From a virus: a stretch of DNA of 40,752 nt. This document shows positions 4,542 to 9,394 of the stretch, piece by piece. Under the pieces are notes generated by a model. The model was not told the DNA's origin. It ran no database searches and saw nothing but the letters and a program-made list of their open reading frames with translations. The position numbers and the translations under genes were made by a program. The stretch lies in IMG/VR virus record IMGVR_UViG_3300007734_000685, positions 1 to 40,752 of that record. One strand, 5' to 3'. Within the stretch, counting starts at the first letter, position 1; the number at the start of each line of letters is the position of its first letter.

Positions 4542-5014
4542 CTAAAGACGAATTGAAGTTGGCACTTAAGCGCGCAAAACGCGATGAACGTCATTTATCA
4601 AACGCTGAGACACGATATTGGTGTAACCAATACAAATTATTGGCGACACAAGCCATTGAAGCCTTGGCACAGCCAGAGCAACGCAACTTGTCCGAACAAG
4701 AGCATGATGTTTTGATGAATGCAATTAAAGCGTCATCGACGGTTGTCTCTAAAGGGTTCTTGGCACAGCCAGAGCAAGAACCTGTGGGTAGGTTTGCCAA
4801 ATTCACCGATGGTATTTGGCGAGAAGTAACTGATGGGTCTGCGGGAGTTCCTCTCTACACCACCCCACCACAGCGCACATGGGTTGGGCTGACGGATGAT
4901 GACAAAGTGTTAATAAAACATGATGCAAATTTTAACCAGTTTATGACAGCAGGTGAATATGCTGACAGAGTGCAACAGTTAACTGAAGCCAGATTAAAGG
5001 ACTTAAACACATGA
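4538..5014 (+). CDS. Hypothetical 'LAQPEQ...YTTPPQR' phage protein
   Basis: A 158-residue protein from the ATG at 4538, chosen because it overlaps the previous stop as ATGA and has AGGA six bases upstream; an ATG 21 bases earlier lies inside the lipoprotein gene. The N-terminal half is helical. The motif LAQPEQ occurs twice (about residues 44 and 77), followed by EPVGRFAKFTDGIW...GVPLYTTPPQR. That segment is a common, often repeated module in phages of Burkholderiales and Pseudomonas whose function is unknown to me. The C-terminus is again helical. Confidence 0.75.
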   Translation: MTKDELKLALKRAKRDERHLSNAETRYWCNQYKLLATQAIEALAQPEQRNLSEQEHDVLMNAIKASSTVVSKGFLAQPEQEPVGRFAKFTDGIWREVTDGSAGVPLYTTPPQRTWVGLTDDDKVLIKHDANFNQFMTAGEYADRVQQLTEARLKDLNT

Positions 5015-8334: not shown

Positions 8335-8637
8335 ACCCATCCCCGAAATTTCTCAAAAACTTTTTCCTGTTGCAAAGACGCAACACACCTTGATGACTAG
8401 TAGGGAGAGGGATTGTGTGATGGTTAACTGTGGACGAACTATGGCATCCACTGTTTTTACTTAAAAAGAAAGCTTTCAAGCAGTAGCACCTTGTTTATCT
8501 AACTTAACCCTGATGGGCTCTACCTGTATGTTCCCGTTCATTGCTTACTAGAGAGACTGATAGATTCAGTACGTTTATCTGGGTTGGTAAGCTACCTGCC
8601 TTCCCAAGGGCTGGATGATGGCCCCGTATTCATTCTA

Positions 8638-8654
8638 TTAGGGTTTACCCCTAT
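8638..8654. promoter_or_regulatory. Putative operator TTAGGG-N5-CCCTAT (site 3)
   Basis: Half-sites TTAGGG and CCCTAT with spacer TTTAC, about 55 bases upstream of the -35 region of the rightward late promoter. It is a strict match to the motif shared with sites at 1940 and 37422. Confidence 0.45.
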
Positions 8655-8669
8655 GTAAAGGGGATAGCC

Positions 8670-8678: not shown

Positions 8679-8706
8679 CTCTGTATAAGAATCCTATATA
8701 AAAATT

Positions 8707-8736
8707 TTTACTCAAAACTTTTTGGGTAGCTATAAT
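8707..8736 (+). promoter_or_regulatory. Rightward late promoter
   Basis: A perfect -10 TATAAT (8731-8736) with TTTACT (8707-8712) as a four-of-six -35 at 18 bases, in an AT-rich context. Transcription would start near 8743, exactly at the first base of the structured leader, and read the packaging and head genes. Confidence 0.55.
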
Positions 8737-8742
8737 TGTTTG

Positions 8743-8834
8743 GTTGGGACGTTAAGCCAGCATTCAAGGATGTCGATGCAAGATTTTTTCTGGCTTTCCA
8801 TCTTGCTTTGCCAAAGACCAAATTGAGTCCCAAC
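8743..8834 (+). ncRNA. Structured 5' leader with predicted pseudoknot
   Basis: Three perfect pairings lie between the late promoter and the first late gene. P1 pairs GTTGGGAC (8743-8750) with GTCCCAAC (8827-8834). P2 pairs AAGCCAG (8754-8760) with CTGGCTT (8790-8796). P3 pairs GCAAGAT (8778-8784) with ATCTTGC (8800-8806). P2 and P3 interleave, which is a pseudoknot, and P1 closes the whole element. It ends 17 bases before the start codon at 8852. It does not look like a tRNA and I recognise no riboswitch or ribozyme class. A cis-acting regulator, an RNA processing signal or a packaged small RNA are possible. Confidence 0.6.
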
Positions 8835-8851
8835 ACTTTTATAGGAATAGC

Positions 8852-9394
8852 ATGGAATGGACATTGGCACACCCACTGCATGATGTGGACGATATTGTGA
8901 ACATGGCAGACTCAGTCTTTGGGCATGAAGCTGATGGCATACTGACTAGGGACAAAGCCGTGTTCCGCAAGAATGTCACTGTTGCCACTACAGTTCAGTT
9001 GTTTGACAGAAGCAAAGAATTCATTGCGGTCTGCCGTGGACCCAAAGTAATTGACACTTTCCTAGGCCAGGCAGAAGTTAATGATGCGCTGCTAGGGTAC
9101 TGTTGGTTTGATCGTGGCGGGTATACCACCTATGCCAATGATGAAATATCCAATGCCAAGTTCCACCATGTTGACTTAGAATTAAGCCCTCGCTTGCGTG
9201 TGCGCTTGATAAATGAGATGATTGACCAACATATATTGTGGGCAGACAGATGGTATATACCAGTGGTATGTTCCACTTCTATTCGTGCCGAACATGATGG
9301 GTTTATGAAGATTCACAAGAAACGTGGGTTTACTGTACACGGCTCATATGCTTGGCTTAGAACTGAAAAGGGTATGGAATGTTTGAAGAAATAA
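8852..9394 (+). CDS. GNAT-like protein upstream of terminase
   Basis: A 180-residue protein. Its C-terminal half (LELSPRLRVRLINEMIDQHI ... STSIRAEHDGFMKIHKKRGF) follows the helix-strand-helix-strand order of GNAT acetyltransferases, with GF near the end, but no clear acetyl-CoA loop (Q/RxxGxG/A) is evident. Proteins of similar appearance occur near terminase or internal-virion genes of podoviruses (T7 gp13 has a comparable pattern). It could modify a host protein or be a virion component. First late gene; ribosome-binding site TAGGAAT. It overlaps the next gene by 16 bases. Confidence 0.5.
   Translation: MEWTLAHPLHDVDDIVNMADSVFGHEADGILTRDKAVFRKNVTVATTVQLFDRSKEFIAVCRGPKVIDTFLGQAEVNDALLGYCWFDRGGYTTYANDEISNAKFHHVDLELSPRLRVRLINEMIDQHILWADRWYIPVVCSTSIRAEHDGFMKIHKKRGFTVHGSYAWLRTEKGMECLKK

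Follow-up and report, generated by a model that had tools for sequence, protein, structure and literature searches.

A covariation-supported double-pseudoknot RNA family in environmental phages and its probable kinship with the Rhizobiales small RNA Atu_At1

GOLLD and ROOL RNAs are structured RNAs of hundreds of nucleotides that are often found in phages near tRNAs, and the stable RNAs C and D of phage T4 are small, stable non-tRNA RNAs of unknown function that are encoded in the phage tRNA cluster. GOLLD and ROOL RNAs are reported to be oligomeric (PMC12286853). The described RNA closest to the element studied here is Atu_At1, an independent small transcript (PMC3738593) that maps to positions 55165-55272 on the minus strand of plasmid pAtC58 and coincides with pAT_55271R of Agrobacterium fabrum C58. 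The pAT_55271R transcript is 118 nt long by RNA-seq and about 140 nt on a Northern blot (PMC3738593, Table 4), its ends are confirmed by 5' and 3' RACE, and its RPKM values are 45 (log), 866 (stationary), 3597 (AB medium), and 877 (induced) (PMC3738593). No function of Atu_At1, and no paper under that name, was found in the literature searched. By BLAST, 204 plasmids carry Atu_At1-like DNA, almost all of them from Rhizobiales. The plasmid neighbors include ligD, xth, catalase, and CsbD genes, a gene content that hints at stress without proving it. On Ti plasmids, an Atu_At1-type RNA is seen upstream of a VirK-family gene (L416:2979-3105, pTi_GV3101).

The element in the window

The window is the whole stretch of DNA that was analyzed, the 40,752 bases of IMG/VR virus record IMGVR_UViG_3300007734_000685. 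From these letters alone, an earlier note described three perfect stems of 8, 7, and 7 bp packed into 92 bases at 8743-8834 on the given (+) strand, and all three are present. Stem S1 pairs 8743-8750 (GTTGGGAC) with 8827-8834 (GTCCCAAC), S2 pairs 8754-8760 (AAGCCAG) with 8790-8796 (CTGGCTT), and S3 pairs 8778-8784 (GCAAGAT) with 8800-8806 (ATCTTGC). The interleaving of S2 with S3 is evident from the sequence and was then confirmed by covariation among relatives. When the 92 bases were shuffled 20,000 times with dinucleotide composition preserved, 0.7% of the shuffles contained two interleaved perfect 7-bp stems and 8% contained any perfect 8-bp stem, and the nested minimum-energy fold of the element has a z of −1.3, which is not significant. 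Given these frequencies and the unremarkable nested energy, the single sequence is only moderately surprising and could not settle the question; confirmation of the element comes from covariation across relatives. The element is the sole match in the 40,752-base record to the covariance model described below (8740-8838, 114.5 bits), and no Rfam family reaches its gathering score over it.

The element was also proposed to begin at a transcription start, which is supported by the upstream sequence. A sigma-70-like promoter at 8707-8736 on the same strand, composed of a −35-like TTTACT (8707-8712), an 18-nt spacer, and a −10 TATAAT (8731-8736), matches the consensus at 10 of 12 positions and places the predicted +1 at about 8743. 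The −10 box is retained as TATAAT, TACAAT, or TAGAAT in relatives with and without the RNA. Other features of this upstream region were observed in passing. The stretch at 8695-8730 (TATATAAAAATTTTTACTCAAAACTTTTT), which precedes the −10 box, shows conservation among relatives whether or not they carry the RNA and is possibly a site for a phage-specific regulator; the non-coding stretch at 8480-8660, upstream of the promoter, is strongly conserved in close relatives; and a terminator-like hairpin lies at 8608-8624. At its other end, the element stops just short of the first late gene, as had been noted: it ends 17 nt before the start codon of an uncharacterized gene (8852-9394, + strand) that is preceded by a Shine-Dalgarno-like AGGA at 8843-8846. 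This gene encodes 180 amino acids with no PHROGs or Pfam family and is the first of an operon leading to terminase and portal.

Covariation and the invariant core

At least 80 relatives of the protein encoded downstream of the window element were collected from IMG/VR, and nine loci upstream of such homologues show the element by eye. A pattern built on the core gave dozens more members in unrelated contexts, and two additional patterns, which placed no constraint on the 5' half and on S2, respectively, enlarged the set. A covariance model, R1, was built from S1, S3, and S4 only; in the first searches, members score 56 to 115 bits and everything else 16 bits or less. The alignment contains 100 distinct sequences from environmental phage contigs, a lower bound on the size of the family, and each of 20 phage records has exactly one copy. 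In about 85,000 bacterial and archaeal genomes, the exact core pattern is absent save for one match, in Verrucomicrobiota DNA, that is without the downstream parts of the element and was judged to be chance. Searching phage and plasmid records with the element's own nucleotide sequence yielded no real member: a match in an Erwinia phage has no covariance-model match, and matches on Rhizobium and Enterobacter plasmids failed as members on follow-up. At the other element-bearing loci, no Rfam family reaches its gathering score over the element, and the only Rfam families found are tRNAs.

Compensatory changes in related phages, the proposed test of the element, are abundant in all stems, and the element is not refuted. 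In a 42-member set, 96.9% of cells are paired and 20 of 26 pairs are changed on both sides; in the 100-member set, the values are 96.0% and 24 of 26. The covariation score is reached by none of 500 shuffles, in which pairing is only 74-77% (versus 96-97% in members), and a one-column shift of the partners lowers pairing to 43-48% in the 100 members and to 43-50% over both sets. S1 (8743-8750 with 8827-8834) is highly variable in sequence, with 95.3% of cells paired and all eight pairs double-changed among the 100 members. S2 is absent from R1, and its arms (8754-8760 and 8790-8796, the latter inside the S3 loop) are still 99.6% paired, with six of seven pairs double-changed and variants such as AAACAGG/CCUGUUU and AAGCUCG/CGAGCUU. 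The third stem is perfect over 7 bp in the window, as had been reported, yet only 6 bp (8778-8783 with 8801-8806) are conserved in the family: all pairs of the stem are double-changed, and 8784-8800 is unpaired in 56 of the 100 members. A fourth stem, S4, escaped the first reading. It pairs 8764-8767 (TCAA) with 8823-8826 (TTGA), crosses S2, and abuts the 3' arm of S1 directly; 99% of its cells are paired, three of four pairs are double-changed, and its variants include TCGA/TCGA and TTGA/TCAA. Mutual information, which is blind to structure, ranks the pairs of S1, S3, S4, and S2 at the top, along with a lone pair between 8777 and 8813 that is C-G in 50 and U-A in 27 of the 100 members. The G-U pairs are located on the named strand, as would be the case for an RNA transcribed from that strand.

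About 24 unpaired positions are invariant among the 100 members. The invariant single strands are GGAUGU (8768-8773, 100 of 100 members), UUUU (8786-8789, between the S3 5' arm and the S2 3' arm), UC (8797-8798, after the S2 3' arm), and ACCRAA (8817-8822, directly before the S4 3' arm). ACCRAA is kept in 42 members whose search pattern left it free, and both GGAUGU and ACC-AAU are likewise invariant in members from patterns that left them free. An alternative closing stem between TTTGGT (8739-8744) and ACCAAA (8817-8822), suggested in the earlier note, is unconserved: the bases around its 5' partner vary freely, and ACCRAA is nearly invariant for reasons other than this pairing. A five-pair helix of 8773-8777 with 8810-8814 was also discarded, since only 8777-8813, in another register, covaries well. 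In some relatives, an extra segment of about 12-35 nt is inserted between S3 and ACCRAA, at the site corresponding to 8807-8810 (L009:874-1007, L085:969-1079, L143:1930-2044, and also L303 and L313); the pairing of this segment was judged by eye. The element is a double-pseudoknot RNA selected for its structure and for a constant unpaired core. The RNA family, at first a hunch from a single sequence, is now defined by at least 100 distinct members whose covariation supports a double pseudoknot.

Transcription and genomic setting of the family

In 53 non-redundant flanks that have no element C (described below) upstream, a TATAAT box (at least 5 of 6 matches) ends 14-15 nt before invariant G8751, which is 6-7 nt before S1, in 13 cases; every other distance is represented by 0 or 1. 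L125, which is antisense to its neighbors, has TATAAT 6 nt before S1. Downstream, 23 of 74 non-redundant members have TTTT in the 14 nt that follow S1, compared to 4.2% of random positions in the same contigs. These promoter and T-run statistics suggest that part of the family forms its own transcription unit. Most members have no recognizable promoter and lie inside operons, and the many without a −10 box or TTTT must ride on operon transcripts. No strong terminator follows the window element, so there the RNA would also be the 5' end of an mRNA.

The neighbors across relatives include HNH, DNA polymerase A, 5'-3' exonuclease, TerS/TerL, lysozyme, and SSB-like genes. In some relatives the element separates TerS from TerL or precedes TerS; in others it follows an HNH gene, falls in a DNA-polymerase/exonuclease region, or has a holin-like gene on one side and a lysozyme gene on the other, or an SSB-like and a YqaJ-like gene on its two sides. 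In the holin-like/lysozyme and SSB-like/YqaJ-like groups, it is antisense to both neighbors, as seen in L104/L119/L137 and L120/L125. Copies are also present in tRNA arrays, between tRNA-His and tRNA-Tyr in L197 and after tRNA-Arg in L159. At the site of the window element in sister phages, an approximate classification by simple regular expression finds this RNA in 11 of 77 classified loci, three of them together with element C, and other RNA elements, tRNAs, or nothing recognized in the rest. The proposed tie to late expression is thus incidental, as most relatives are elsewhere and some are antisense to their neighbors. These varied, antisense, and tRNA-array contexts argue against an element acting in cis on one gene, and the context pattern is what would be expected if the RNA were an accessory gene and not an element controlling a single gene. 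The findings point to this position as one at which these phages exchange tRNAs and a number of unlisted small RNAs.

Several of these neighboring RNAs deserve a brief description of their own. A tRNA-Asn, or tRNA-Asn with tRNA-Thr, lies upstream of the window-gene homologue in L018, L019, L033, and L058, where the pseudoknot RNA lies in other phages. Element C is found upstream of the pseudoknot RNA, often directly before it (L022, L112, L113, L127, L147, and others), and has a constant frame, AACACGCAUGRRGAUU...AGUCYYCAGCCGUGUUGG, around a highly variable interior of 30-70 nt. Its 3' arm shares GTT with the 5' arm of S1, so the element C stem and S1 may compete. The element C interiors of L010 (about 4850-4950) and L012 (1056-1151) contain a tRNA-like T arm (GTGGGTTCGATCCCCAC) and an acceptor-like stem; ARAGORN called no tRNA in them. 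Element B, also unlisted and about 60 nt long (L113:345-400, L185, L240, L330-L392), has the layout CGUCU-UGGAC(A/U)CGC-AGACG-NNAAAGCGANG(U/A)GGG-stem-UGGAAKC-stem, and its pattern is matched by 68 viral contigs. By eye, its two stems covary, and a CAC/CUC loop covaries with a downstream GUG/GAG, which suggests a pseudoknot. The L113 copy of element B has no Rfam match at E 5.

Relation to Atu_At1 and alternative readings

The earlier note knew of no riboswitch or ribozyme with this layout. Rfam agrees, in that no family is matched at its gathering score; a probable distant relative is nevertheless known, Atu_At1 (RF02496), a Rhizobiales small RNA of neither class. In a low-threshold scan of L113 against all of Rfam, RF02496 aligns over the full length of the element (19.9 bits, E 0.46). 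Against 25 phage records it gives five hits, the best four of which are exactly the element (L287, E 0.0023; L240, E 0.0027; L102, E 0.0067; L090, E 0.12). The phage RNAs score 16-21 bits (best 21.2), below the RF02496 gathering score of 60 bits, and RF02496 has no match in the window. The phage RNA is below the formal Rfam cut-off and hence is not filed as an Atu_At1 member. In the reverse direction, the best place for R1 on the 543-kb pAtC58 is Atu_At1, and its best match is also the Atu_At1-type RNA on a Ti plasmid and in the L492 phage; this amounts to three of six records bearing such an RNA, the other three having their best match elsewhere or none. R1 scores on Atu_At1 RNAs are 14-18 bits, within the noise range of large replicons, and a chance match inside a sugar-kinase gene on another plasmid is higher (20.8 bits). 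The reverse evidence therefore rests on position and not on score.

A MAFFT alignment of both groups misplaces the 3' part, so the helices were located member by member. Across eleven Atu_At1-type RNAs, S1, S2, S3, and S4 occur in the same order around GUYAA, GGAUG, UUUU, and UC. S2 has seven of seven pairs in ten of these RNAs and six of seven in one, with A-U replaced by G-C in two; S4 varies as GATAG/CTATC, GACGG/CCGTC, AACAG/CTGTT, and GATGG/CCATC; and compensatory changes are found in S1, S2, and S4. Both the phage and the Atu_At1 groups have the same helices, in the same order and with covariation support, S4 being placed unclearly by the script in three of the eleven (L417, L421, L546). 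The bacterial form also occurs in phages: an RF02496 member scoring 88.7 bits, which exceeds the cut-off, is packed tightly between two genes on the 42.7-kb phage contig of L492, which also has Erf-like and RecE-like genes. Matches of an Atu_At1-like pattern in viral contigs are otherwise mostly chance, with L492 the one true member.

We favor, with a probability of roughly 0.6, the reading that the family is the phage branch of an Atu_At1-type kind of RNA, a trans-acting small RNA that here forms the first 92 bases of a late transcript. The only named member of this kind would be Atu_At1, an independently transcribed small RNA of Rhizobiales. In the proposed fold of about 92 nt, S1 would close both ends, S4 and S3 would stack inside, and S2 would connect the loop of S3 with the segment that separates S1 from S4. 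The pseudoknots may thereby gather the invariant single strands GGAUGU, UUUU, UC, and ACCRAA into one surface, and the RNA is envisaged as a stable small RNA acting in trans, with this surface binding a conserved host partner, either protein or RNA. In the window phage, it would be an accessory RNA cassette that occupies the first 92 nt of the late transcript, and probably an exchangeable one, because the position before the same late gene holds tRNAs, other RNA elements, or nothing recognizable in other phages.

A cis-acting 5' leader, which would shield the late mRNA from 5'-end-dependent decay or tune translation of the first late gene, is unlikely. It accords with the window and its close relatives, where the element extends from +1 to a point 17 nt short of the start codon, and with the operon copies, which lie a few nucleotides after a stop codon and 16-26 nt before the next start; however, relatives are antisense to both neighbors, in tRNA arrays, or before unrelated genes, sister phages are without the element at the same site, and the approximately 24 invariant unpaired bases exceed the needs of a stability stem. 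The copies in tRNA arrays, or packed between genes in either orientation with one copy per phage, recall instead a small catalytic RNA, self-cleaving or of another kind, that would process phage transcripts, for which theta ribozymes beside phage tRNAs are a precedent (PMC10879173). The two pseudoknots, invariant unpaired core, and variable stems would suit such an RNA. No Rfam ribozyme model matches, though, the outer S1 would keep both fragments together, and the Atu_At1 transcript, with RACE-mapped ends, is longer than the element, so no cleavage is evident (PMC3738593); we regard this reading as distinctly improbable.

The 5' leader position in the window and the aptamer-like invariant core could also be those of a metabolite-binding riboswitch controlling the downstream gene. 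With downstream genes that have no common pathway, antisense and tRNA-array copies, and no expression platform seen, this has very little chance of being correct. A packaging RNA working with terminase, like the phi29 pRNA, is scarcely more than conceivable: the element lies just before or between terminase genes in several groups (L142, L113, L149) and the window operon leads to terminase, but other groups carry the element in DNA-replication or lysis regions, relatives on bacterial plasmids have no terminase nearby, and sister phages are without it at the same site (the site only, not whole genomes). Finally, AAGGATGTCGATG resembles a ribosome-binding site with starts, and the frame that begins at the AGGA-UG inside the element is open for 18 codons in the window, as a short coding leader for an attenuator peptide would require. 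In the 100 members this frame stops after codon 3, 4, 7, 13, 14, 18, 22, or 24, or never within the element, and the sequence changes track base pairing instead; on the variable stops, a leader peptide was rejected as having practically no likelihood.

The preferred reading, a phage branch of the Atu_At1-type RNAs, invites a broader and more tentative one, to which we give a minority chance. A single RNA fold, so far known only as an obscure small RNA of Rhizobiales plasmids, would be common to plasmids and many environmental phages; a captured host stress RNA expressed from a strong promoter might reprogram the host or blunt its defense, or the core might be a new catalytic RNA. The Atu_At1 link provides a culturable, genetically tractable relative in which function can be examined with no need to propagate the phage.

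Among described RNAs, T4 RNAs C and D are like the phage pseudoknot RNA by description alone. GOLLD and ROOL are alike in being structured RNAs without an assigned function and differ in their length of hundreds of nucleotides and their reported oligomeric state; no Rfam match to either is present in the window. Theta ribozymes, HDV-like RNAs of gut phages, are likewise small double-pseudoknot phage RNAs that are often in tRNA arrays and sometimes far from tRNAs (PMC10879173). They differ in their P1/P2/P3/P4 layout and 5' cleavage site, whereas in the phage pseudoknot RNA S1 encloses everything and there is no P3 hairpin. An HDV-like topology was considered, as the S2/S4 order recalls P1/P2 and CRAA recalls J4/2, and was set aside: S3 stands where P3 would be, the whole is enclosed by S1, and the element loci match no HDV-like Rfam model. 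Atu_At1 differs from the phage RNA in a spacer before S4' that is about 20 nt longer, an S4 of 5 bp rather than 4 bp, and an S2 of AACCGGA/UCCGGUU in place of AAGCCAG/CUGGCUU. In the Rfam consensus for Atu_At1, the S2 arms are unpaired with each other, which suggests that this structure omits the crossing helix. Both RNAs are intergenic and on mobile replicons, the RACE-mapped 5' end of Atu_At1 (55271) lies about 2 nt before S1 (PMC3738593), and both share the arrangement S1 - GUYAA + S2 - C - S4 - GGAUG - S3 - UUUU - S2' - UC - S3' - spacer - S4' - S1'.
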